NCBI RefSeq assembly: GCF_003002925.1
Contig: NZ_PVTK01000007.1
Span: 62,001-126,000 of the forward strand
Direction: 5' to 3'
DNA from: Vreelandella songnenensis
GTDB lineage: Bacteria > Pseudomonadota > Gammaproteobacteria > Pseudomonadales > Halomonadaceae
DNA: 64,000 nucleotides
A program made the translations under genes and the position numbers. Shown here one piece after another: positions 28,398 through 40,467 of this stretch (position 1 is the stretch's first letter; the number at the start of each line of letters is the position of its first letter). A model generated the notes under the pieces. It made no database searches. It saw nothing but the letters and a program-made list of their open reading frames with translations, and was not told the DNA's origin.

Positions 28398-29273
28398 ATG
28401 GATACACAAAGCCTCCAAGCCTTCCTGGCCGTTGCCGAAACCCAAAGCTTCTCCCGTGCCGCCGAGCAGCTCTACCTGACCCAGCCTGCGGTCAGCAAAC
28501 GCATTGCCGCGCTTGAATCTCAGGTGAACACGCGCCTGTTTGATCGCATCGGCCGACGCATATCGCTTACCGAAGCAGGCCGCCTGCTGCTGCCCCAGGC
28601 CAAGCGCATACTCATGGCGGTGGAAGATAGCCGCCGAGCGCTTGCCAATCTTTCCGGGCAGGTGGGCGGGCGGCTGACCCTGGCCACCAGCCACCATATT
28701 GGCCTGCACCGACTGCCGCCGATTCTCAAGCGCTACACCCAGCGCCATCCGGAAGTTGAGCTGGATCTTCACTTTCTGGACTCAGAGTTCGCCTATCAGG
28801 GCGTGCAGGACGGTACGCTGGAAATGGCGCTGGTGACGCTGGCCCCCCACCCTATCGAACAGCTTCATGTAGTGAAGCTGTGGCATGATCGGCTATGTTT
28901 CGTATGCGCGCCGGACCACCCCTTGGCCCATGCATCATCGTTGACGCTCGAGGCACTGTGCCAATACAAGTGCGTACTCCCCGGCGCCATGACGTTTACC
29001 CGCACGCTGATTGAAGCGCGCTTTACCCAGGCAGGCCTTGCGTTGCCGGTCAGCATGGCCACCAACTACCTGGAAACCCTGAAAATGATGTGCAGCGTCG
29101 GGCTCGGCTGGAGCTTGCTGCCTGAAGGCATGGTGGATAATGAGCTGGTGGAACTCAGCGTCGATACTGCGCCGATTCATCGTCCATTGGGTTATCTGGT
29201 GCATACCAACCGAACGCTTTCCAACGCCGCCCAAACCATGATTGACGCTCTGGAAAACACCCGGGAGATATAA
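28398..29273 (+). CDS. LysR-family transcriptional regulator, probable leu regulator
   Basis: A 291-residue regulator: winged helix-turn-helix at residues 1-60 (SFSRAAEQLYLTQPAVSKRIAALE is the recognition region) and a periplasmic-binding-type effector domain at about 90-290. It is transcribed away from leuCDB and a perfect T-N11-A palindrome lies between them, so control of leu expression by a leucine-pathway intermediate is likely. The effector cannot be told from sequence. Confidence 0.9.
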   Translation: MDTQSLQAFLAVAETQSFSRAAEQLYLTQPAVSKRIAALESQVNTRLFDRIGRRISLTEAGRLLLPQAKRILMAVEDSRRALANLSGQVGGRLTLATSHHIGLHRLPPILKRYTQRHPEVELDLHFLDSEFAYQGVQDGTLEMALVTLAPHPIEQLHVVKLWHDRLCFVCAPDHPLAHASSLTLEALCQYKCVLPGAMTFTRTLIEARFTQAGLALPVSMATNYLETLKMMCSVGLGWSLLPEGMVDNELVELSVDTAPIHRPLGYLVHTNRTLSNAAQTMIDALENTREI

Positions 29274-29671
29274 AATACGCGTCAGTTTGAGGCCGACTAA
29301 TACTCCAAGTCTTACTTTTTATAACCAGATTTAAATGAATACTAAAACGCTTGGCATCAGTTTGCATCGACACGATAACCACGTGACGATTCCCACACTT
29401 ATTGGCAAATCACACTCAACAAGAGAGTCAATTACTTTTAAACAGCATTTACCAAAACAGTAAAAACATAATAGCAGACAATCAAAACAACCACTTGAGC
29501 ATGCATGATCATTCATTAAAACCCCAGCTACTGGCAAGACCTAAACGATCAAGCGGTCACTCACCATTCGTCATCATTAAGACTTAGCCTGTCCGCTTTT
29601 TATCGCTACTAATATCCCCTTCAATATCAACAGATGTGCTAGTTCAGCCTGTTAGATACTCCTATACACTT

Positions 29672-29712
29672 GGAAGTACGCTTTTATTAATAAATAAGCG
29701 ATAGCCACTTCC
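29672..29712 (+). repeat. Nested stem-loop before pgaA
   Basis: The outer arms GGAAGT/ACTTCC (29672-29677 and 29707-29712) enclose inner arms CGCTT/AAGCG (29679-29683 and 29696-29700) around an AT-only loop. It lies just upstream of the pgaA ribosome site and includes one GGA triplet. Confidence 0.4.
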
Positions 29713-29721
29713 TTCTAGTGC

Positions 29722-29745
29722 AGGAATAACAGTGTAGGAATAACA
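29722..29745 (+). promoter_or_regulatory. Tandem AGGAATAACA repeat at the pgaA ribosome-binding site
   Basis: Two identical 10-mers start at 29722 and 29736; the second provides the Shine-Dalgarno sequence of pgaA. Each carries a GGA triplet, the core of CsrA/RsmA sites. The arrangement parallels the CsrA-repressed pgaA leader of E. coli. Confidence 0.4.
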
Positions 29746-29747
29746 CC

Positions 29748-32174
29748 ATGTACGGTCGCCATCGCTCGTTACTGCCGATTTGCTTATTTGCCTGCCTCGC
29801 CACAGAAACGGCGTATGGGCAAACCACTACCGATGCACAACGAGAAGCCCTGGTGATACAAGCGCGCAATGGTGCGCTGGAAACGTCGATTGCAGACATG
29901 CAGATACTCTTTGAGCAAACCCAGAACCGACGCGTGCGTGAGGACCTGATTGCGCTGCTGGTACGTGCCTCCCGTTACCAGCAGGCGCTTGCGGTCTGCC
30001 CGGGCTGCGAAGCCGATGACTATAGCGATTCCGAACTTGCCACCTTGGGCGGTGCCGCGCGCAGCGCCGGTGAATACCCCCGGGCACTCCGCCTGTTTCA
30101 GACGCTGACCTACCGCAACCCGGCCAACGCCGAAGGCTGGCTGGGTCAGGCGCTGGTTCATACTGACATGGGGGCCTACACCCTTGCCGATATCGCGCTG
30201 CAACAGTATAGCCAGGTGGCGGGTAGCACCACGGCAGGTCTTGAAGCGCGCGGCTACCTGGCGGCAAGCACCTCCAATGCCATGCAGGAGCTTCAGGCCC
30301 GCCAGGCGCTGGTCGACCAGAATCCAGACAATACCAACGAGCTTCAGGCGCTTTATCGCCTGGCCGTCGGGCTGGGCGCAAGCTCCGCCGCACGTCAGAT
30401 CATGCAGGCCAACCCGGAAGTCTTCTCGGAAAGCGACCGACTCTGGCTTGCCTACTATGAAGCAGTTACCGACATACGTCTGGGCATTCATACCGACCAG
30501 CCTGTCAGAACCCAGAGTGGCCTGACGCTATTGAACCAGGTACTGCGCGACCCAGCCGCACCGCAGGAACTCGTCACCCTGGCCGAATACGACAAAGTCG
30601 TGGCGCTTGCCGAACTCAGGCAGTTCCCCGAAGCCGAGGCCCTGGCTGCAAGGCTCCACGCCCAGCAGCGCCAGCTGCCAAGCTATGTCAGCCGCGCCCG
30701 TGCCTATGCGCTCAACGGCCTGGGTCGGCCAAGCGATGCCATCCCGCTTTATGAAAGCCTGATTCGGCAAGCTCCGGAGCAGGCAACCAATCCTGATGAC
30801 CCGCTCAATGAAGGGCTCTTTTATAGCTATACCGATGCCCAGCAGTTTCGTGACGCCGACAGGTTGCTTGCCGCCTGGCGCGCGAAAGAGCCGGAGCAGC
30901 GGCTGGACTTTACACGAACCCTGCGCATCGATAACCCCAACTACCAGAAGGTGCTGCTGCTGGATGTGCTGCTGACCGCCTGGCGCGGCGATGCGGGCAA
31001 GGCCAGCGAGCAACTGGCTGGCTACCAGGCGCAGGCGCCGGCGGACCCTTATCTATGGTTACTGAAGGGCGACCTTGAGCGCGACCGCGGCTGGCCTCGA
31101 AAAGCCGAAGCCTCTTACCAGCAAGCCGAGCAGTTGATGCCACCGGCCCAGCGCGATGCCGCTCGCCACGGAGGGCTGCTTTCCGAACTGCAGCGCGGTC
31201 AATGGCGGGGTACCACCACACAGATCGCCGCAGAGATTGCTACCGCCAGACCCAGCCCCACCCGCGATCAGTTGGCCCGCGAGTGGCGCGAACTACGCGC
31301 CCCCCAAATAAGCAGCACGGTGGCGCGTAGCGAAGGCGAAGGCAGCGGCACACAGGCTTCACGCGAGTGGCGCTACGAAGTACTGCTGGAAGGCCCGCGC
31401 AACCAGAACGGCTCGCGCCCCTTTGCTCAGCGCATCGGCCAGTACGGCGAGTTCGAAGACGAGGCCCTGCATGCCGCCTATACCATTGCCGGTTACGAAT
31501 GGAACCTGCACCCGGCCACGTTAAGGCTGGCCGCCGGGCAAGGGGCACAGCTCAACGAGGATTTTCTAGCCCTGGCCGAACTGCGCTACGCCGTTTCCGA
31601 TCACCTGACGACCACGCTGGGTGTCGAGATCAACACACCGGATACCCCTTTACGCGCACTACGCGATGGCGTGAATGCCGACCGCTACCGGGGCGAGCTT
31701 GCCTACCGGCGTGACGAGCGGGGCGCCGGTGCGGTTGGTGTCATGGCCACCGACTTCGACGATGGCAACCTGCGCCAGGCCATTTACGGCTACTGGGCCC
31801 AGACGCTTTATCACTTCGACCGCTGGCAGATAAACGGGGAAGTTCGCGGCGCGGCCTCGCGTAACGACGAGGTCGAGGCCAGCTATTTCAATCCGCGCAA
31901 GGACGCAAGCCTGGGCGGCACGCTATCCGTTGATTACGAGCTGCCGCTTGATTACCGCAAGTCGTTTACCCAGCGCCTTTCCGCCGGTTCAGGTCACTAC
32001 TGGCAGCAGGATAACGACAGCGAAAACACCTGGACGGTGGGTTATGAGCATCAATGGGAGCTGGCCCCCACGCTAAGTATCGAGTACGGCATATTCAGGC
32101 AAAGGGCCGTCTACGACGGTACTCCCGAGTATGACAACAGCATTTCAGCAAGCTTTACATGGAGATTCTTATGA
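29748..32174 (+). CDS. pgaA: PNAG outer-membrane export porin PgaA
   Basis: This porin exports partly deacetylated poly-beta-1,6-N-acetylglucosamine across the outer membrane. The 808-residue protein has a signal peptide (cleavage near AYG-QT, residue 24), a periplasmic TPR superhelix (about 30-510) and a C-terminal beta-barrel (about 530-808) ending in an aromatic residue (SFTWRFL), the outer-membrane insertion signal. It is the first gene of pgaABCD and shares ATGA with pgaB. Length is close to E. coli PgaA (807). Confidence 0.94.
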   Translation: MYGRHRSLLPICLFACLATETAYGQTTTDAQREALVIQARNGALETSIADMQILFEQTQNRRVREDLIALLVRASRYQQALAVCPGCEADDYSDSELATLGGAARSAGEYPRALRLFQTLTYRNPANAEGWLGQALVHTDMGAYTLADIALQQYSQVAGSTTAGLEARGYLAASTSNAMQELQARQALVDQNPDNTNELQALYRLAVGLGASSAARQIMQANPEVFSESDRLWLAYYEAVTDIRLGIHTDQPVRTQSGLTLLNQVLRDPAAPQELVTLAEYDKVVALAELRQFPEAEALAARLHAQQRQLPSYVSRARAYALNGLGRPSDAIPLYESLIRQAPEQATNPDDPLNEGLFYSYTDAQQFRDADRLLAAWRAKEPEQRLDFTRTLRIDNPNYQKVLLLDVLLTAWRGDAGKASEQLAGYQAQAPADPYLWLLKGDLERDRGWPRKAEASYQQAEQLMPPAQRDAARHGGLLSELQRGQWRGTTTQIAAEIATARPSPTRDQLAREWRELRAPQISSTVARSEGEGSGTQASREWRYEVLLEGPRNQNGSRPFAQRIGQYGEFEDEALHAAYTIAGYEWNLHPATLRLAAGQGAQLNEDFLALAELRYAVSDHLTTTLGVEINTPDTPLRALRDGVNADRYRGELAYRRDERGAGAVGVMATDFDDGNLRQAIYGYWAQTLYHFDRWQINGEVRGAASRNDEVEASYFNPRKDASLGGTLSVDYELPLDYRKSFTQRLSAGSGHYWQQDNDSENTWTVGYEHQWELAPTLSIEYGIFRQRAVYDGTPEYDNSISASFTWRFL

Positions 32175-34135
32175 AACACTGGCGCACCTATCTCGTCAGC
32201 GCTGCCTTGCTGGTCATGCTGGGGCTGCAACAGGCCCAGGCCGCCCGGACGGCCAACGACTACGTGGTCATCAGCTACCACGATATCGTCGATACCGCGA
32301 CGACCCCGGACCTGCCCATCTACTCCCAGACCATCACCCGCAACCGGCTGGTCGAACACTTCAACCTGCTCGCCCTAGGCGGCTATCAGCCGGTCAGTCT
32401 GCAGCAGATTCTGGATGCCAAGGCCGGCGGCACGCCGCTGCCGGACAATGCCGTACTGTTGACCTTCGATGACGGCTACAGAAGCTTTTACGATATCGTC
32501 TTTCCCCTGCTCAAGCTTTATGGCTTTCCGGCGGTGCAGGCGGTTGTCGGCAGTTGGCTGGACGTTCCCGAAGGCGGACGGGTGCCCTACGGCAGCACGA
32601 CGCTTCCCCGCGAACGCTTTCTTACCTGGGAACAGGTGAAGACTCTGGATGAATCGCCGCTGGTGGAGATCGCCTCGCATACCTACAACCTGCACTACGG
32701 GGTAAAGGGTAATCCTATGGGCAATGAACAGGCAGCGGCTGTCACCAGCATCTGGAACACGCAAACCGGCTATGAAAGCGAAGCGGACTATCTGGAGCGC
32801 ATTCGCGGCGATATGGCACGCACCCAGGAGCAGTTTCAGGCACATATGGGCCGCTCGCCGCGCATGATGGTATGGCCTTACGGCGCCTATAGCGAAGCAA
32901 CGCTCAATATCGCTGCAGAGTACGGCATGATCTATACCTTCAGCCTGCTGAGTTCGCCCAATCAGCTCAATGACCCCATGCGCACCATCAACCGCTACCT
33001 GATTGATCAGGAAACCAGCCTGCAGACCATTGAGGAGATTCTTACCAATCGCGTCTGGGACCCGCAGGCACAGCGTATTGTTCATGTCGATCTGGATTAT
33101 GTCTTCGATACGGACCCGGTTCAGCAGGAGCAGAACCTTGACCGACTGATCGAGCGCATCTTCAACTACGGTGTTACAACGGTGTACCTGCAGGCGTTCT
33201 CGGACCCGGATGGCGATGGCGTGACCGACGCACTCTACTTCCCAAATCGCCACCTGCCGGTCAGGGCTGACCTTTTCAACCGGGTCGCCTGGCAGCTAAA
33301 GAAACGTGCAGGCGTCAAGGTATACGCCTGGATGCCCGTGCTCTCCTTTGATCTGGGCGACGATCATCGCTACGTAACCGACTCGCGGACAGGTCTGGAA
33401 TCTCCCGACCGCTATCGCAGACTTTCTCCCTACGTCGAGGAAAACCGTCAGCTCATCCGCGAGATCTATCAAGACCTTGGCCGGCTGACCAAATTCGATG
33501 GACTGCTGTTTCATGACGACGCCTTCCTGAACGATTTCGAGGATGCCAATCCGGAAGCGCTGACCGCCTATGCCCAAGCTACCCTGCCCGCGGATATTGC
33601 CGCCATCAACGATGATGACACTCTGATGGCCGCCTGGACGCAGCATAAGACGCAGTTTCTTACCGACTTCACACAGCAGCTTGCCCAGGCTGCCAACTAC
33701 TACCGCCAGGCAGATAACAAGCAGTTCACCACGGCGCGCAACCTGTATGCCGGCACCGTCATGAACCCTGAAAGCCAGCAATGGTTTTCCCAGGATATCC
33801 AGAATTTTGCCGCGGGTTACGATTTCGTTGCGGTCATGGCGATGCCCTACATGGAGCTTGCCGACGACGACCCGGATGGCTGGCTGCGATCACTTGCACG
33901 GCGCTCGCTTTCTCAGGTCAGCGCCGATCAGCTGGTATTCGAGCTGCAGACCCAGGATTGGCGTACCCAGACCCCGATCTCCAGTGAAGAGCTGGCCCGC
34001 TGGGTGCGCCTGCTGCGCGAAGAAGGCATCAAGCATATTGGCTACTACCCTGACGACTTCCTTCAGAACCACCCGGATATCAATGTACTCCGCCCGGTAT
34101 TCTCCCTCGGCCGTCGTTTCAGAGCGATCCCATGA
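32171..34135 (+). CDS. pgaB: PNAG N-deacetylase / glycoside hydrolase PgaB
   Basis: This periplasmic enzyme deacetylates PNAG before export and can cleave it. The 654-residue protein has an N-terminal polysaccharide deacetylase domain with the metal and catalytic motifs TFDDGY (98-103) and SHTYNLHYG (about 170-178). A C-terminal TIM-barrel hydrolase domain (about 300-654) contains a VHVDLDYVFD start and LLFHDDAFLNDF. E. coli PgaB is a lipoprotein, but here the signal sequence ends ...QQAQA with no cysteine after it, so this version seems to be a soluble periplasmic protein. The true start is the ATG inside the pgaA stop (ATGA). Confidence 0.93.
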   Translation: MKHWRTYLVSAALLVMLGLQQAQAARTANDYVVISYHDIVDTATTPDLPIYSQTITRNRLVEHFNLLALGGYQPVSLQQILDAKAGGTPLPDNAVLLTFDDGYRSFYDIVFPLLKLYGFPAVQAVVGSWLDVPEGGRVPYGSTTLPRERFLTWEQVKTLDESPLVEIASHTYNLHYGVKGNPMGNEQAAAVTSIWNTQTGYESEADYLERIRGDMARTQEQFQAHMGRSPRMMVWPYGAYSEATLNIAAEYGMIYTFSLLSSPNQLNDPMRTINRYLIDQETSLQTIEEILTNRVWDPQAQRIVHVDLDYVFDTDPVQQEQNLDRLIERIFNYGVTTVYLQAFSDPDGDGVTDALYFPNRHLPVRADLFNRVAWQLKKRAGVKVYAWMPVLSFDLGDDHRYVTDSRTGLESPDRYRRLSPYVEENRQLIREIYQDLGRLTKFDGLLFHDDAFLNDFEDANPEALTAYAQATLPADIAAINDDDTLMAAWTQHKTQFLTDFTQQLAQAANYYRQADNKQFTTARNLYAGTVMNPESQQWFSQDIQNFAAGYDFVAVMAMPYMELADDDPDGWLRSLARRSLSQVSADQLVFELQTQDWRTQTPISSEELARWVRLLREEGIKHIGYYPDDFLQNHPDINVLRPVFSLGRRFRAIP

Positions 34136-35382
34136 ACATACTCGACTATCTCGCCATCTTCACGCTGGGTTATCCGAGCATGATGGCCACGATATGGATT
34201 TGCGGCGGGGTGTACTTCTACCTTCACTGGGAGCGCAAACAGCCCTGGCCGGCCACGTTTGTCTGGGATGACAGCGCCCCCAACGTGACGGTGCTGCTGC
34301 CCTGCTACAACGAAGGCGCCAATGTCGATGAAACGGTTCACCATCTTTTCAAGCAGAACTACCCCAAGATGGACGTTATCGCCATCAATGACGGCAGTAC
34401 CGATGACACGGGCAGTCGGCTTGACGCGCTGGCGCTCGGCTATCCCAATCTCAAGGTGCTCCATCAGACCAACCAAGGCAAGGCCAGCGCCATGAACAAC
34501 GGTCTGCGCGAAGTGACCAGCGAGATCATCGTGGGCATCGATGGCGACGCCATTCTCGACTATGACGCTATCCCCTACATGGTGGGCCACTTCATGAGCA
34601 GCCCCAACGTCAGTGGGGTGACCGGCAATCCTCGGGTGCGCACGCGCTCCACCGCAATCGGCAAGATTCAGACCGGCGAGTTTTCCGCGATTATCGGTTT
34701 GATCAAACGCGCCCAGCGGATCTACGGCATGGTATTTACCATCTCCGGCGTCATCTGCGCCTTCAAACGCTCGGCTCTTGAAAGCATCGGCGGCTGGAAT
34801 ACCGATATGGTCACCGAAGATATCGATGTCAGCTGGCGGATGCAGCTGGCCGGGGGCCAGGTTCGCTACGAGCCGCGCGCCATGTGCTGGGTGCTGATGC
34901 CTGAAACCCTGCGCGGCCTGTTCAAGCAGCGCCTGCGCTGGTCACAAGGTGGCGGTGAAGTCGTGATCCGCTACTTTTCCCAGACCGTGCGCTGGAAGAA
35001 CCGTCGCTTCTGGCCGCTGATGCTGGAGTACATGATCAGCGTGGCCTGGTGCTACTCCGTGATTGCGCTGCTGCTTGCCTGGCTGATTTCTCAAGTAACG
35101 CTGCCCATGGCCTGGCCCATCACCACGCGAGTGTTCTCCTACTTCGGCAGCCTCTTGATCGCCATCAGCTTCATTCAGTTTACCGTCAGCTTCTATATCG
35201 ATAGCCGCTACGACAAGGAAATCTTTCGCTGCGTCTATTGGAGCATCTGGTATCCGTTCGCCTACTGGATTCTCAACATGGCCACGGTGGTGATTGCCTT
35301 CCCCAAGGCCATGGTGCGCCGCAAAGGCAAGCTTGCCACCTGGACCAGCCCCGACCGAGGAGAGCGTTTCCATGAACAATAA
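34132..35382 (+). CDS. pgaC: PNAG synthase, family 2 glycosyltransferase PgaC
   Basis: This inner-membrane enzyme polymerises GlcNAc from UDP-GlcNAc. The 416-residue protein has an N-terminal membrane helix (about 9-31), a GT2 domain with INDGSTDD (85-92), the DGD metal motif (137-139), the catalytic TEDIDVSW (about 229-236) and QRLRWSQGG (about 266-274). Several membrane helices follow from about 295 on. It overlaps pgaB by ATGA. In E. coli, PgaC with PgaD is allosterically activated by c-di-GMP. Confidence 0.96.
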   Translation: MNILDYLAIFTLGYPSMMATIWICGGVYFYLHWERKQPWPATFVWDDSAPNVTVLLPCYNEGANVDETVHHLFKQNYPKMDVIAINDGSTDDTGSRLDALALGYPNLKVLHQTNQGKASAMNNGLREVTSEIIVGIDGDAILDYDAIPYMVGHFMSSPNVSGVTGNPRVRTRSTAIGKIQTGEFSAIIGLIKRAQRIYGMVFTISGVICAFKRSALESIGGWNTDMVTEDIDVSWRMQLAGGQVRYEPRAMCWVLMPETLRGLFKQRLRWSQGGGEVVIRYFSQTVRWKNRRFWPLMLEYMISVAWCYSVIALLLAWLISQVTLPMAWPITTRVFSYFGSLLIAISFIQFTVSFYIDSRYDKEIFRCVYWSIWYPFAYWILNMATVVIAFPKAMVRRKGKLATWTSPDRGERFHEQ

Positions 35383-35773
35383 ACTCGTGCCCATCATCAT
35401 CAATAACCCCTGCCAGAAAGGCTGGGGTTACCGTACCCGCGATGCCGTGATCACGCTTGCCACGCTGATACTCTGGGTACTGGTAATGTCACGCTTATAC
35501 GTCTTCTTTGTCATGGAAGAAGCCGTTCTGGAGCAGCTCTGCGGCTCCTTCATGATCAAGGCGGTAGGCATTGGCTTCATACTGACGTTTTTCACGTTTC
35601 ATTGCTGGGCGGTCTATAACCGATACCTGTATACCAGCTACCTGAAAAGCCAGCCGCGTCATGTTGAACAGCCCCCGCTGACGATGGAGGAAAAAGTGCC
35701 AGTCGACGATATCACTCCCCCGATACCGCAAGCGCAAACAACGCAAGAGGCGCATCGCCATGTAACCCATTAG
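35372..35773 (+). CDS. pgaD: PNAG synthesis accessory protein PgaD
   Basis: A 133-residue inner-membrane partner of PgaC with two membrane helices (about 25-47 and 64-86). In E. coli the PgaC-PgaD interface binds c-di-GMP. The chosen ATG at 35372 has GAGGAGAG upstream and overlaps the pgaC stop by 11 bases; the open frame extends further upstream only because it reads through pgaC. The protein starts with a short hydrophobic LVPIIINNP stretch like other PgaD proteins. No terminator is evident after it. Confidence 0.88.
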   Translation: MNNKLVPIIINNPCQKGWGYRTRDAVITLATLILWVLVMSRLYVFFVMEEAVLEQLCGSFMIKAVGIGFILTFFTFHCWAVYNRYLYTSYLKSQPRHVEQPPLTMEEKVPVDDITPPIPQAQTTQEAHRHVTH

Positions 35774-35812
35774 CCTGAAAGTGACAGGCGTGCAGCGTAT
35801 GGTTCAACGTCC

Positions 35813-36025
35813 GTGACAAAACGAACGGCCCCCTCGCGAAAGTCACCTGCCCAACAACATCGCACGCTTGTCTTAAACGCCGACCGGCCTCAGTCGTGGC
35901 CAGTTTTGATACCACTGTCTTTGCACAACGCTCTGCCTGAAATCACCCGAATTAGGCCTTTTCGGGTTCAGCGTTATGGTGAGCGCAAACAACGGCTCGA
36001 TACCAACTATGAGTGCTTAGTTTAG
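35813..36025 (+). pseudogene. Possible N-terminal remnant of an HNH-endonuclease-family gene
   Basis: A GTG-started frame of 70 codons encodes RTLVLNADRPQSWP followed by PLSL and RVQRYGE, which resembles the conserved start of a common HNH endonuclease family (R-T-L-V-L-N-A-D-x-R-P-L-S, then PLSL). There is no HNH catalytic domain: the frame ends at a stop exactly where composition turns AT-rich. It could be a truncated remnant, or the resemblance could be chance. Confidence 0.3.
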
Positions 36026-36177
36026 GTATCAAAATACAAGGTTTATAGTCACATTGTTCGTCCGAAATGCTCACTCTAATCTATACAACATAAATAAAAT
36101 TTTTTGAGTATTTAAAATAACTATTAAGTATCGTCATTTAATTCTAAATTCTTCTTGTAACCAACTTAAACTAGTTA

Positions 36178-36203
36178 TTAAAAAAGCCCACTTATAGCGG
36201 GCT
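36178..36203 (-). terminator. Rho-independent terminator of the SIR2 gene
   Basis: A 7-bp stem (36185-36191 with 36197-36203, one G-T pair) is followed on the minus strand by a T-run. It lies 20 bases past the SIR2-gene stop, showing that the gene is an independent transcription unit. Confidence 0.75.
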
Positions 36204-36223
36204 AAATTATAGAAACCTCTAAT

Positions 36224-38824
36224 TTATTTTTCCAACTCTATTCCTTCAAGTATGGGCCATCTTAAAAAGCGATAATAATTAAGTTTATTTCTTGCAATTT
36301 CTTTATTAGCGATCTGAGATGCTTTAGTAGTTTCTCCAAGCATATATCGCGCACATATTTCTACACCCTTATCTTTTGTTTTATTATATACGTTTCTAAT
36401 ATCGATATCTCTATAAATTTGATCACCTAACTTTTTGGCTGCAAAGTAACCATTTAAGAAGAAAGCTTCATGCTCGACTTGAGATATATTTTCACGATAT
36501 TTTTTAAACAAAACTAAGCAGTCATCAAAATACCCAAATTTTATATGACAAAAAGACTTAGCTGTTAGATATGTTTCAAAACTTAGCCCTGACTTATAAG
36601 CTTTATCAATAGAAACTATCGCCCGCTCATAGTCCTCATTAAAAACTGCCAACTCATGTTGCAATCGATAATAAGCACTATCATCAATAATGCCAAAACT
36701 TTTGTTAGCTATAACTTCTATATCCTCATACAACTCTGGAAGAAAAGCAGCTACTAAAGTTAAAGCTTTTTCTAAATAAATATCAGCGTTTTTATTGTTT
36801 AGCGCAGAAACCACGCACTCTTTAGCTTTTTGTTCATCACCCATCACGCCATACATATATTCAGCTTTACATAGTAAAACATAAGGACTTATCTTTTTAC
36901 CAAAATCTTGAATATAAAACTCTTTAACCCTTCTTTGCAAATCTTCACTAACATCTTTTTCGTTAAGAATATTAAAGATTCTATTTTTTAGAAAAACAAT
37001 TCTTTGTTTTTTTCTTTCAACAGATTTACTAGATGCTAAATCAAGCAAATCTAATTGCTTTAAAGCATTTTCTTCATCAAATTTCTTATAGATTTTGCCA
37101 GTTAATAAATCTAAAGTTCTTATATGCATTTTGTTTAATTTCTCAAGATGCATATATAATTCACTAATTTGGCCTTCAATATCATTTACATCTTTTTTCG
37201 AACCATGATGATCAAATGTTTTTAACTCTCTTCTAGCATACAGCAAATCTAGCTTCAACGACCAAGCATCATTAGAAAGACTAGGCTCAAGCGCTAGACT
37301 TTTATCAATCCAAATACTAATATCATTTAAAACAGCTTCATCTCTTTTTACATTCTTTTCTTTATTATTAAATAGCTCATATCCAACTTCTGCGGCTCGG
37401 TTATATAACTCATAATTAAACTCAAAATAATTTGCTCTTTCTTCCAAGAAATCTCTTTTTTCTTTAATATTATCGAAGCAGTTTGCCTTTAATAGATAAT
37501 ATGCAACATTATTACTATCAATATCAATAAGTTGATCAGCCCATTTAGTTGCTGTATATTTATCATTATTCAAGTTAGCCAAACTTACTAATTTAGAAAT
37601 ATATCTAGTTCTTGCATCATCATTTACTAAATTCTTAAAATAGTTTTCGCACAACTCATAAGCTGCATGCACTCCTTTTTCATCTCTCACACTATCAATT
37701 TCAAGCAAATTTCTAAGATCTGTTATTCCTATATCTGAATAATTATCATCATCTTTTTCCATATTACTTAAAAATTCAGATATATCTTGCTTACTACTTT
37801 CATTCTTTAGGGTATTAACATCTTGTTCGATAAATGTATTTTTTGACAATAAAAATTCATCTGAAATAATATTCTGTATAGTTTTTTGAAGCTTAGATTC
37901 CTTATTGTTAGGTCTTAAATCTAAGTTTTTACCTACTATAGAATGATAGCAATTAGCAAAAAATTCATCAAAGCCATCAATTAAAACTGGATAAACCTTA
38001 TCTTTCCACAATAAATTTCTAAGAGTATGAGAAATTTCGTCATCCTTTCTCAAACACCAGTAGATGCCATTTTTAAGATAGTTATCCTGCTTTATTAAAA
38101 ACTCAAGCGTATCCATGATTGATCTATCATTTCCCGAATAGCCAACTACTACTAAACCATACTCTTTACAGAACTCTACAAGCTTTTCTTTAGTATTTTG
38201 TTCTAATGACTCGGTTTCTTTTAACGTACTTTTTATATCATCAAATAAATAATCACCATGCAATTTTATTATTTTAGGTCTTTTTGACGTGATTGAAATA
38301 GAGTGAATCGAAGAATCATGCGCACAATGTATGGGCCTAACGCTCGAAAACTGATAAAAAGCTTCATTTATTAAGTCATCAAAATTTGTTGTAAATATAT
38401 TGCTAAAATAATGCTCTTTCACCATCGAAATCAAATAAGAATACCCAATTGATGGTAGTTTTTCATCAACTTCATATTCAACAAACCTTCTACGCTGAGA
38501 AGGCAAATCAAATTTCTTTTCAAATAAAGATGAGTAAGGGTTTGCAGAACTATACCAACTAGCATGCTCTCTTTCTAAATAGCTTCTAGACTCAACGATG
38601 TCAGCTTTGACATTATTATATCTTTCGTATAACTCAAGCGTCCATTCATCAATAAGATTATTTGCTGTTCTTATACCAGATGTAACAGAACATCCAGCAC
38701 CCATCAATAAATTATAGTTTGACATCCCTCCTTCGCGAGTTCTTATATGCCTGATTAAGTCCATTTCTGTTCTAACTTTATGGAACAACTCACCGTTATT
38801 TTCAAAAAGCTGTGAAGCTTTCAT
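36224..38824 (-). CDS. SIR2-domain protein, probable anti-phage NADase
   Basis: An 866-residue protein with an N-terminal SIR2-like domain (about residues 30-300). The NAD-binding loop MGAGCSVTSG is at 41-50, TTNFDD at 145-150 (the conserved Asn is N147), the presumed catalytic histidine H189 is in KLHGDY, and VVGYSGND is at 226-233. These are the residues needed for NAD+ hydrolysis in defence SIR2 proteins. The remaining 560 residues are helical and repeat-like (TPR-type pattern), a likely sensor. There is no Walker A motif, Argonaute, HerA or membrane segment, which argues against Avs5, SIR2-pAgo and SIR2-HerA; a single-gene DSR-like system fits best. Local GC is about 30%, far below the flanking genes, indicating horizontal acquisition. 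GAGGA precedes the ATG and an own terminator follows. Defence function is inferred. Confidence 0.82.
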   Translation of the reverse strand: MKASQLFENNGELFHKVRTEMDLIRHIRTREGGMSNYNLLMGAGCSVTSGIRTANNLIDEWTLELYERYNNVKADIVESRSYLEREHASWYSSANPYSSLFEKKFDLPSQRRRFVEYEVDEKLPSIGYSYLISMVKEHYFSNIFTTNFDDLINEAFYQFSSVRPIHCAHDSSIHSISITSKRPKIIKLHGDYLFDDIKSTLKETESLEQNTKEKLVEFCKEYGLVVVGYSGNDRSIMDTLEFLIKQDNYLKNGIYWCLRKDDEISHTLRNLLWKDKVYPVLIDGFDEFFANCYHSIVGKNLDLRPNNKESKLQKTIQNIISDEFLLSKNTFIEQDVNTLKNESSKQDISEFLSNMEKDDDNYSDIGITDLRNLLEIDSVRDEKGVHAAYELCENYFKNLVNDDARTRYISKLVSLANLNNDKYTATKWADQLIDIDSNNVAYYLLKANCFDNIKEKRDFLEERANYFEFNYELYNRAAEVGYELFNNKEKNVKRDEAVLNDISIWIDKSLALEPSLSNDAWSLKLDLLYARRELKTFDHHGSKKDVNDIEGQISELYMHLEKLNKMHIRTLDLLTGKIYKKFDEENALKQLDLLDLASSKSVERKKQRIVFLKNRIFNILNEKDVSEDLQRRVKEFYIQDFGKKISPYVLLCKAEYMYGVMGDEQKAKECVVSALNNKNADIYLEKALTLVAAFLPELYEDIEVIANKSFGIIDDSAYYRLQHELAVFNEDYERAIVSIDKAYKSGLSFETYLTAKSFCHIKFGYFDDCLVLFKKYRENISQVEHEAFFLNGYFAAKKLGDQIYRDIDIRNVYNKTKDKGVEICARYMLGETTKASQIANKEIARNKLNYYRFLRWPILEGIELEK

Positions 38825-39153
38825 TTTTTATCCTCGATAAATATTAGTCATGCAATAAGTCAACATAAGACCAAGAAAGTTAAAATGAAATTATTAAAAT
38901 TATATATCATAGCAATTAGCTATAACGATATAGCGGAGCTAACTATAATTTAAGTAAACCAAGGCATAGAATAGAGGAAGTTTAAAAAAAAGCTATAGCT
39001 CTTCTAAAGCAACTAAAATCATCCTATACGCGCAGACCAATAACACAACAGAGAAATTCATTCAACACTTAATTAACCTAAAGCGCACTTTTGGTAATTA
39101 GCCTTTCCAAGTTTATTCTATTAGCCTGCTAATTCCAGGTGAAAGGACCAGGC
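38825..39153. other. AT-rich region upstream of the SIR2 gene
   Basis: About 330 gene-free bases separate the SIR2 start from the transporter start. The AT-rich composition continues to about 39070. It holds the SIR2 ribosome site (GAGGA), nested inverted repeats at 38916-38942 and several TATAAT-like sequences; no single promoter can be chosen. The plus-strand promoter of the transporter must lie near its right end. Confidence 0.5.
38916..38942. promoter_or_regulatory. Nested inverted repeat upstream of the SIR2 gene
   Basis: Outer arms TTAGCT/AGCTAA (38916-38921, 38937-38942) and inner arms GCTATA/TATAGC (38919-38924, 38929-38934) overlap in one 27-base element, about 95-120 bases before the SIR2 start. 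It could be an operator or a cruciform-prone sequence. Confidence 0.3.
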
Positions 39154-40467
39154 ATGGAAAAGATCTCTTCCCGGCATCGTGCGGCCGGCGTATTAGCATT
39201 ACTTGGGCTGGTAACTCAGATCGTCGGGTTCACTAGCTGGGCGGAGACCACTCAGCTCGTAAGCTACCTGCTTTGGGGAGCAGTGGCATTGCTCTGGCGC
39301 GATATTCCCGGGCGCTCACGGATACAGGCGGGCGCGTTGATGGCGACCGGCGCGCTAATGCTGCTGGTGGCGCGATTTGTGTATGACGCCTCTATTGATT
39401 GGCCCCGGGTGCTGGAAGGCAACGTGTTCGTCGTGGCGATGCTGATCGGCGTGAGTTTTATCTCGCTGATTGGCAGGCAGGGTAATCAGTCTGTCGGGGG
39501 CAAGCGGCTGACCGGTAGTGGCGGTATTCTACGCACCTGGCTGGGCGTACATTTTCTCGGCACCATCTTGAACCTTTCTACCATTTTCATGGTGGGCGAC
39601 CGCATCGCACGGCGGGCTCCCTTGACGACGCCGCAGTACCTGGCACTCAACCGCGGCCTTTCCAGCGCCGCCCTTTGGTCGCCGTTCTTCGCCTCGATGG
39701 GTCTGGTCATCGCGCTCGCCCCGGAAGTCCGCTACCTGCATATCGCGCTAGTCGGGTTTCCCATCGCCATGCTGTCTGGAGCCATTACCACGCTGGAACT
39801 TCGCCGCCGGTTCGATCTCACCGAGGTCGATGGTTTTTCGCTCTCGCCTAAAAGTCTTCTGATGCCCCTGGGCATGGCCGCTGGCGTCATGCTCTTTCAT
39901 TTCTGGCTCACGCCGTCGCTTTCCATCATCAGTATCATCACCTTTCTATTGCCCGGCGTGGCGGTCATCGCCAATCTTCGCAACGGGCCTGTGTTCACAC
40001 TAAAACGCGTACGGCAGCACGCCTTCCACCGCCTGCCCGCCATGCGTGGTGAATTTTCGCTATTTCTGGCGGCGGGGCTTCTGACCATCGGACTCTCCAC
40101 GCTGGTCAGCGCCGCGGCAGGCCAGGAGTGGACGCTTTTCGAGAATTTCGGTATCGGGCAGGGACTTTTAAGCTTCGTGGGTATCGTGGCAAGCGCCTTG
40201 CTGGGGCTTCATCCGATCATCGGCATTTCGGTACTGGCATCGATGCTTGATCTGGCGGCCAGCGACCAGACACTCTTTGCCTTCGTGGCCTTGAGTGCCT
40301 GGTCAGTGGGTACAAGCGTTGGCCCCTTGTCAGGTATCAACCTGTCACTGCAGGGACGCTACGGGGTAAGCAGCTATCAGATGATGCGTGACAATCTACT
40401 CTATGCAGGCATCATGAGCCTGCTTTCGCTGGGCGCGATTGCAGGCATCGGATTCATCCAGCCCTAG
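39154..40467 (+). CDS. Multi-pass membrane protein, putative ion/solute transporter
   Basis: A 437-residue protein with about 11-12 hydrophobic segments and little else. The C-terminal LGLHPIIGISVLASML and SVGPLSGINLSLQGRYG segments resemble the paired re-entrant loops of ion-transporter (IT) superfamily proteins such as citrate, arsenite or Na+/H+ carriers, but I cannot name a family or substrate. The ATG at 39154 is preferred over the upstream GTG because AAAGGA lies six bases before it. It ends tail to tail with the zinc-ribbon gene, the two stops sharing CTAG. Confidence 0.7.
   Translation: MEKISSRHRAAGVLALLGLVTQIVGFTSWAETTQLVSYLLWGAVALLWRDIPGRSRIQAGALMATGALMLLVARFVYDASIDWPRVLEGNVFVVAMLIGVSFISLIGRQGNQSVGGKRLTGSGGILRTWLGVHFLGTILNLSTIFMVGDRIARRAPLTTPQYLALNRGLSSAALWSPFFASMGLVIALAPEVRYLHIALVGFPIAMLSGAITTLELRRRFDLTEVDGFSLSPKSLLMPLGMAAGVMLFHFWLTPSLSIISIITFLLPGVAVIANLRNGPVFTLKRVRQHAFHRLPAMRGEFSLFLAAGLLTIGLSTLVSAAAGQEWTLFENFGIGQGLLSFVGIVASALLGLHPIIGISVLASMLDLAASDQTLFAFVALSAWSVGTSVGPLSGINLSLQGRYGVSSYQMMRDNLLYAGIMSLLSLGAIAGIGFIQP

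Follow-up and report, generated by a model that had tools for sequence, protein, structure and literature searches.

What does a lone gene for a SIR2 protein do in DNA far poorer in G and C than its surroundings? The gene lies at 36224-38824 (-) in a stretch of 64,000 nucleotides from Vreelandella songnenensis (contig NZ_PVTK01000007.1, positions 62,001 to 126,000; the window below means this whole stretch), and encodes a protein of 866 amino acids (aa) in which an N-terminal SIR2 domain is joined to a C-terminal part modelled as a superhelix of the tetratricopeptide repeat (TPR) type. We conclude that this SIR2-TPR gene probably specifies a one-protein anti-phage immune receptor that would deplete nicotinamide adenine dinucleotide (NAD+) when switched by a ligand on its TPR solenoid. 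A preliminary description of the locus had taken it for a single-gene SIR2 defence candidate of a DSR-like or new architecture, and much of this stood: the gene is single, its layout is DSR-like, it was almost certainly acquired horizontally, and neither HerA nor Argonaute nor an ATPase goes with it. The kinship did not, as the SIR2 domain is nearest to the SIR2-APAZ kind of SPARSA and not to DSR2.

Exploring the N-terminal part, we found the SIR2 fold, the GAGCS loop, N147 and H189 of the preliminary description borne out in an intact 866-aa open reading frame (ORF). SIR2_2 is the sole Pfam family above cut-off (E 9.8e-16, residues 142-274), N147 lies within TTNFDDL and H189 within KLHGDY. 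Relatives were drawn from 7997 scored candidates, 1769 of which pass E <= 1e-3 and the best 120 of which were listed; alignment A2 holds 100 of these 120, fragments and some near-duplicates being left out (A1 holds 31 and A3 58). Fourteen residues are invariant in 101/101 aligned sequences (G42, G44, S46, T145, N147, D149, K187, H189, G190, D191, G228, Y229, G231 and D233), and sequence identity with the window protein has a median of 71% for residues 36-300 versus 26% for residues 301-866. The fold of the domain resembles those of SPARSA, Kom, ThsA, SIR2-HerA and DSR2, with classical sirtuins lower in the same list, and is nearest SPARSA SIR2-APAZ (8jl0, 8jkz, 8in8) by sequence as well as by fold, the sequence match stopping at residue 295 (profile position 311) and the fold match at 357. 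GAGxS and TTNxD are named as motifs of Avs5, DSR1/2, ThsA and short Argonautes (PMC12931631), and the window protein shares both, together with the catalytic N and H, with DSR1/DSR2. N133 and H171 are needed for the activity of DSR2 (PMC11087589), and mutation of N168/H227 in SIR2-HerA ends activity or immunity (PMC11559045). Since the catalytic residues are conserved here and mutating them abolishes activity or immunity in these two systems, the window protein is, on sequence and analogy, very likely an NADase.

The C-terminal part had been described as about 560 residues of helical repeat with no recognisable domain; helical it is, but its fold class can be recognised. In an AlphaFold2 model of the whole protein (mean predicted local distance difference test score 87.1, predicted template modelling score 0.64) this part forms a TPR-type superhelix of 27 helices, and when it was compared by itself with solved folds, TPR-type proteins were among the 50 matches listed. 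Pfam TPR was not found in the window protein itself; the Pfam TPR scan also covered 7 full-length homologues, three of them chosen because TPR had already been noted. In the library of viral structures a giant-virus protein was the one match at E <= 0.001, with general repeat proteins below it. As in DSR2, a single protein carries an N-terminal SIR2 NADase-type domain and a long helical solenoid with no ATPase, the difference from DSR2 being that the solenoid looks TPR-type; Avs5 (SIR2-STAND-repeats) likewise has repeats, TPR among them, C-terminal to a SIR2 effector. DSR2 is triggered by a phage tail tube (PMC11087589), and the parts after its SIR2 domain are described as binding the trigger, while for Avs5 the C-terminal repeat domain has been put forward as the sensor of a phage protein (PMC12931631). 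Because the layout resembles DSR2 and Avs5, we infer that the TPR part likely senses a phage-made ligand.

The preferred mechanism would run as follows. The N-terminal domain, an NAD+ hydrolase akin to that of SPARSA, would be held inactive in uninfected cells; the superhelix would bind a ligand that arises in infected cells and is most likely a phage protein; binding would change the shape or oligomer and turn the NADase on; and NAD+ would then drop and phage production stop, with or without loss of the cell. Autoinhibition and oligomerisation are proposed by analogy with the relatives named above. Temperate phages and other mobile elements would spread the gene as cargo, and the copy here would stand alone after horizontal transfer.

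The places in which relatives live are consistent with such a role. In Escherichia coli 43/5426 genomes match, 19 over at least 80% of the gene and 24 over less (7 of these 24 are listed, each covering 8%). We inspected 6 of the 19, chosen from different sequence groups, and 1 of the 24. All 6 full-length loci lie between the portal gene gpQ and the replication gene gpA of P2-like prophages and are annotated 'SIR2 family protein'. The gpA-gpQ interval of P2-like phages is an experimentally tested anti-phage hotspot, and the legend of figure 4 of Rousset et al. 2022 includes SIR2 (PMC9122126); those SIR2 cassettes share the gpQ-gpA site with the E. coli members and may belong to the SIR2-TPR family. 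The same interval holds 14 of 37 loci in a viral-contig collection (the gpA match of locus L066 is short), on 13 contigs that are not 13 independent events because several are near-identical E. coli-type phages. Both halves of the protein are present at 21 of the 37 loci (in L066 as two ORFs) and one locus is cut by the contig end; the other 15, some of them near-identical, have the SIR2 module only, at 33-47% identity, followed by a different C-terminal part, L082 ending near its contig end. Of the viral-contig relatives, the closest is truncated at its contig end (65% across the first 347 residues) and adjoins ORFs that look DnaB-like, repressor-like and recombinase-like by reading, and one viral contig has a Zot-like gene.

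Six further loci come from named bacterial genomes, where neighbour scans covered chosen genes (two sets of 10). Phage tail genes lie next to the copies of Acinetobacter and Alkanindiges, P2-like genes for capsid, terminase and portal 4-9 kb from that of Sodalis, a primase-helicase and a transposase near that of Xenorhabdus and an integrase fragment near that of Pectobacterium; the scanned neighbours in Marinobacter are an ABC-transporter gene and two genes without a match. Among plasmids 38/72,556 match, one of them, a Pantoea conjugative plasmid, over at least 80%, with the gene beside a tyrosine integrase. Mobile-element genes thus lie near 12 of the 13 full-length relatives examined outside the viral collection (6 from E. 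coli, 5/6 from named genomes, 1 from the plasmid). The preliminary description, which saw no mobile-element or partner gene, was right for the window copy and incomplete as to the mobile-element genes near its relatives; and none of these 13 was seen in a conserved metabolic locus, a setting that it would have counted against defence, Marinobacter being a possible exception. The GC content of the gene (26-38%) is below that of most neighbours in 11/11 loci measured. Shorter relatives lie near integrases in a Vibrio P2-like phage, a corticovirus-like phage and a haloarchaeal virus (3 of 4 phage records opened). Carriage as cargo in accessory hotspots of temperate phages was found for relatives and not for the window copy itself.

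How the window copy came to its place is indicated by its composition and its distribution. The AT-rich island of the preliminary description measures 27.8-30.0% GC across 36001-39110 versus 57.8% at 1-35773 and 57.5% at 39139-64000, with edges about 100-150 bp wide. Counting the window's own genome each time, the gene occurs in 1/82 genomes of the genus (E <= 1e-20), in 2/390 of the order and in 1/369 of the class sample (both E <= 1e-60); the order-level match G141 and the Marinobacter locus L002 have identical profile scores and are probably one genome. A genome-wide search found no second SIR2_2 protein in the window's genome. In the comparison with related genomes that the preliminary description had suggested, 0/29 same-genus loci carrying the right flanking gene (39139) align inside the low-GC block (blastn E <= 1e-3; flanks of 0.4-1.5 kb compared). 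That the window gene came by horizontal transfer, and that it belongs to a family which prophages often carry, is close to certain.

Analysis of six E. coli alleles revealed how the two halves evolve. The ratio of nonsynonymous to synonymous substitution rates (dN/dS) is 0.04-0.14 for the SIR2 half in 14/15 pairs and 0.27 in a near-identical pair; for the C-terminal half it is 0.04-0.17 in 10/15 pairs (the value 0.04 depends on a dS of 3.9) and 0.24 in the near-identical pair, 4 pairs being not computable. Given that dN/dS is low in each, both halves appear to be kept by selection. The C-terminal half looks looser, but no diversification is visible in it, an argument against a rapid arms race at the scale of the whole domain. 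Alleles 20A24 and NWU_4 (L086:11947-14541 and L091:4001-6595) share 98-100% identity in their first 900 nt and 84-94% afterwards, with a dS of 0.021 in the SIR2 half versus 0.466 in the C-terminal half, so that recombination at the effector-sensor junction is likely for this pair; GB089 and NWU_4 show a like but weaker step. The SIR2 effector may therefore work as a cassette, because the module is joined to another C-terminal part in 14/37 viral loci (the 15th being cut short), because distant SIR2 kin serve Argonaute systems, and because E. coli alleles point to exchange at the junction. Viewed from the other half, a search with the C-terminal part found only 5 proteins, none with an alternative effector; P0121, a candidate for another effector joined to this sensor, was rejected as a fragment starting inside SIR2.

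A further proposal, on which our confidence is evenly divided, is that these proteins would form a distinct, unnamed family of one-protein receptors in which a SPARSA-like NADase, working as a cassette, is fused to a TPR superhelix and switched when a phage protein or peptide binds it directly, with no nucleic-acid guide and no ATPase. Among the open-access papers listed (titles and abstract starts, some lists falling well short of all matches), none described a tested SIR2-TPR defence protein without a nucleoside triphosphatase (NTPase). A tree legend mentions SIR2_2 proteins with a TPR domain (PMC12700824). As far as we could look, the architecture is present in databases and unnamed as a defence system in the open-access literature searched. 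One effector module with different sensors would link the guide-directed SPARSA to the protein-sensing DSR2, architectures that are treated apart, and a single-gene family in E. coli P2-like prophages is directly testable in laboratory strains; it would be a testable addition to the known sirtuin defences, not a revolutionary one.

Of the known SIR2 systems, SPARSA, Avs5, Thoeris and SIR2-HerA do not fit the gene. Unlike SPARSA, it is single and has a TPR-type superhelix where APAZ would be; an orphan SPARSA was rejected, since the protein lacks APAZ and a search of the genome for Piwi gave no match (0/1; the genome is 100% complete by estimate, and 1/14 control genomes was positive). An Avs5-type STAND receptor was rejected since the protein lacks the STAND NTPase and, by motif search, any Walker A motif. 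Membership in Thoeris ThsA was set aside, SIR2_2 being the sole Pfam family (no SLOG) and no ThsB-like neighbour of at least 80 aa lying in the block, as was SIR2-HerA (Nezha), with no second gene of at least 80 aa in the block and scanned neighbours that match other families or none. The absence of Walker A, HerA and Argonaute noted in the preliminary description was therefore upheld by motif, neighbour-gene and Piwi scans. A toxin-antitoxin or other two-gene system was rejected for want of a credible second ORF by eye: the block has no further ORF of at least 80 aa, and smaller ones were judged unconvincing by eye only. The PADLOC candidate family PDC-S65 matches residues 36-349 (E 4.5e-28), and in one E. 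coli member most of its model is matched; PADLOC short-Argonaute SIR2 models outscore it on the window protein (E 2.3e-57). Because the best PADLOC models are SIR2-APAZ, tools would probably call the gene a broken short-Argonaute system.

Several observations weigh against an anti-phage receptor of the kind proposed. The 37-locus collection contains viral contigs by design, the window copy has no mobile-element gene next to it, and phage records match in 4/50,697 cases, none over 80% of the protein; since none of the four reaches 80%, full-length members were seen in prophages or predicted viral contigs and in chromosomes, not in phage records. Rousset et al. cloned eight additional systems from the P2 hotspot and obtained defence with three, and the part of their text consulted neither says whether the SIR2-TPR gene was one of the eight nor gives a defence result for any SIR2 cassette from the site (PMC9122126). 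The likeness to DSR2, which the preliminary description had wished to see checked by fold, is loose: Foldseek aligns the whole model with DSR2 chains over about 1000 columns at a template modelling score of about 0.2 and a root-mean-square deviation of about 29 A, DSR2 chains are not among the 14 PDB matches of the 101-row profile (E <= 1), and the matches of the C-terminal part are TPR-type, DSR2 not being among the 50 listed, an absence that excludes nothing. The TPR matches themselves are close to what helical repeats would give by chance. The gene does have a hairpin just after its stop codon, as the preliminary description said in giving it its own terminator, but such hairpins are not above chance (1 found versus 1.5 +/- 1.6 expected from shuffles); the terminator is supported by its position alone because shuffled sequence yields them as often.

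What else could the gene do? It might serve mobile elements in defence or exclusion directed mainly at other mobile DNA (plasmids, satellites, competing prophages), or respond to a change in the host and not to a phage structural protein. SPARSA, to which the nearest solved SIR2 relatives belong, acts on plasmids as well as phages, one full-length relative rides on the conjugative plasmid beside a tyrosine integrase, and purifying selection acts on the C-terminal part, where nothing points to a diversifying sensor. Most of the full-length relatives examined, however, lie within or next to prophage genes, many of them at the anti-phage hotspot, which makes this explanation unlikely, though it survives best of the three that we weighed against the anti-phage receptor. 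Less probable still is a SIR2 domain that, without depleting NAD+, forms or transfers an ADP-ribose product as a signal or a protein modification: no partner effector gene adjoins the SIR2-TPR gene and the best-scoring solved relatives (SPARSA, Kom, ThsA, SIR2-HerA, DSR2) are immune sirtuins, although sirtuin folds serve several NAD-dependent reactions and SirTM sirtuins are ADP-ribosylating enzymes (PMC12700824). A domesticated sirtuin with a regulatory or metabolic task and no defence role would suit a copy lying between pga-like genes and a conserved gene with no phage genes, and the non-phage genes scanned beside the Marinobacter relative, but is very improbable for a low-GC gene so rare in genus, order and class (1/82, 2/390, 1/369), with relatives in prophages and no C-x(1-6)-C pair in its 866 aa, the absence of which also led us to reject a classical sirtuin deacetylase zinc site.

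Table. Coordinates of the SIR2-TPR gene, its parts and its neighbours in the window.
Feature	Position	Strand	Basis
SIR2-TPR protein gene, 866 aa	36224..38824	-	ATG start; Pfam SIR2_2; AlphaFold2 model
Low-GC block holding one gene	36001..39110		GC content; same-genus comparison
SIR2 (NADase-type) domain, residues 1-300	37925..38824	-	
GAGCS NAD-loop, residues 42-46	38687..38701	-	G42, G44, S46 in 101/101 sequences
N147, predicted catalytic residue	38384..38386	-	101/101 sequences; aligns with SPARSA TTN motif
H189, predicted catalytic residue	38258..38260	-	101/101 sequences; aligns with SPARSA HGD motif
Linker with long helix, residues 301-366 (helix 330-358)	37727..37924	-	AlphaFold2 model
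TPR-type superhelix, residues 367-855, putative sensor	36260..37726	-	Model and fold comparisons; TPR chains match family profile
Intrinsic-terminator-like hairpin 3' of stop codon	36185..36203	-	8 pairs, then TTTTT
Left flanking gene, PgaD-like	35294..35773	+	ORF list; weak TIGR03940 match
Right flanking gene, conserved uncharacterised, called 'permease' in some sources	39139..40467	+	81/82 genus genomes

Some loci of relatives deserve separate mention. In a lambdoid E. coli prophage, L092:5660-7591 encodes a 643-aa SIR2 protein, of which the SIR2 part alone matches, directly 3' of replication protein P. In a corticovirus-like Vibrio phage a gene for a SIR2-module protein separates the integrase from the remainder of the genome (L044:1354-3228). 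A haloarchaeal pleolipovirus encodes a 555-aa SIR2-TPR protein (L046:2062-3729), and the combination therefore extends to archaeal viruses. The homologues at L005:10214-12539 (Pectobacterium) and L066:3220-5845 (viral contig) are split into two ORFs and are possibly decayed or misassembled. L056 and L057 belong to one 48-kb viral contig in which about 19 kb of sequence is present as two inverted copies, probably through misassembly. Near the SIR2-TPR gene of one viral contig, L067:14164-16548 is a second large gene of low GC content (31% GC, 794 aa, assigned to a PHROG of unknown function) that could also be cargo.

Around the window copy itself, a leader RNA at 36178-36254 was rejected (Trp_leader, 21.8 bits versus a gathering score of 41, E 0.36), the signal being probably the terminator. 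The PgaD-like call of the left flank is weak (TIGR03940 E 0.026, 14.5 bits versus a cut-off of 31.45). The nearest named relative of the 39139 gene is in Halomonas aquamarina (91%), followed by Vreelandella. The preliminary description placed the SIR2-TPR gene between core genes; this holds on the right, where the 39139 gene is in 81/82 genomes, and not on the pga-like side, sequence of which was found near the 39139 gene in just 2/29 same-genus loci (L012 and L014, at 0.7-0.8 kb from that gene; flanks up to 1.5 kb). The window has just two copies of the 9-mer ATTAGCCTG, at 35769-35777 and 39120-39128, which flank the block. That on the right is an old leader element belonging to the 39139 gene, present in 28/29 same-genus loci, and likeness to these loci extends about 20 bp further left; for these two reasons ATTAGCCTG is not a clean insert border, and in this comparison with same-genus loci a target-site duplication around the block was not demonstrable. 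In the closest relative, G005, a LysR-type gene and two small ORFs precede the 39139 gene instead, and in G061 the interval holds pga-like genes and another ORF (gene names by reading in both). From the LysR-type gene to the 39139 gene (28398-39138) the window has pga-like genes and the SIR2-TPR gene, and because the contents differ among G005, G061 and the window, this interval is variable in the genus.

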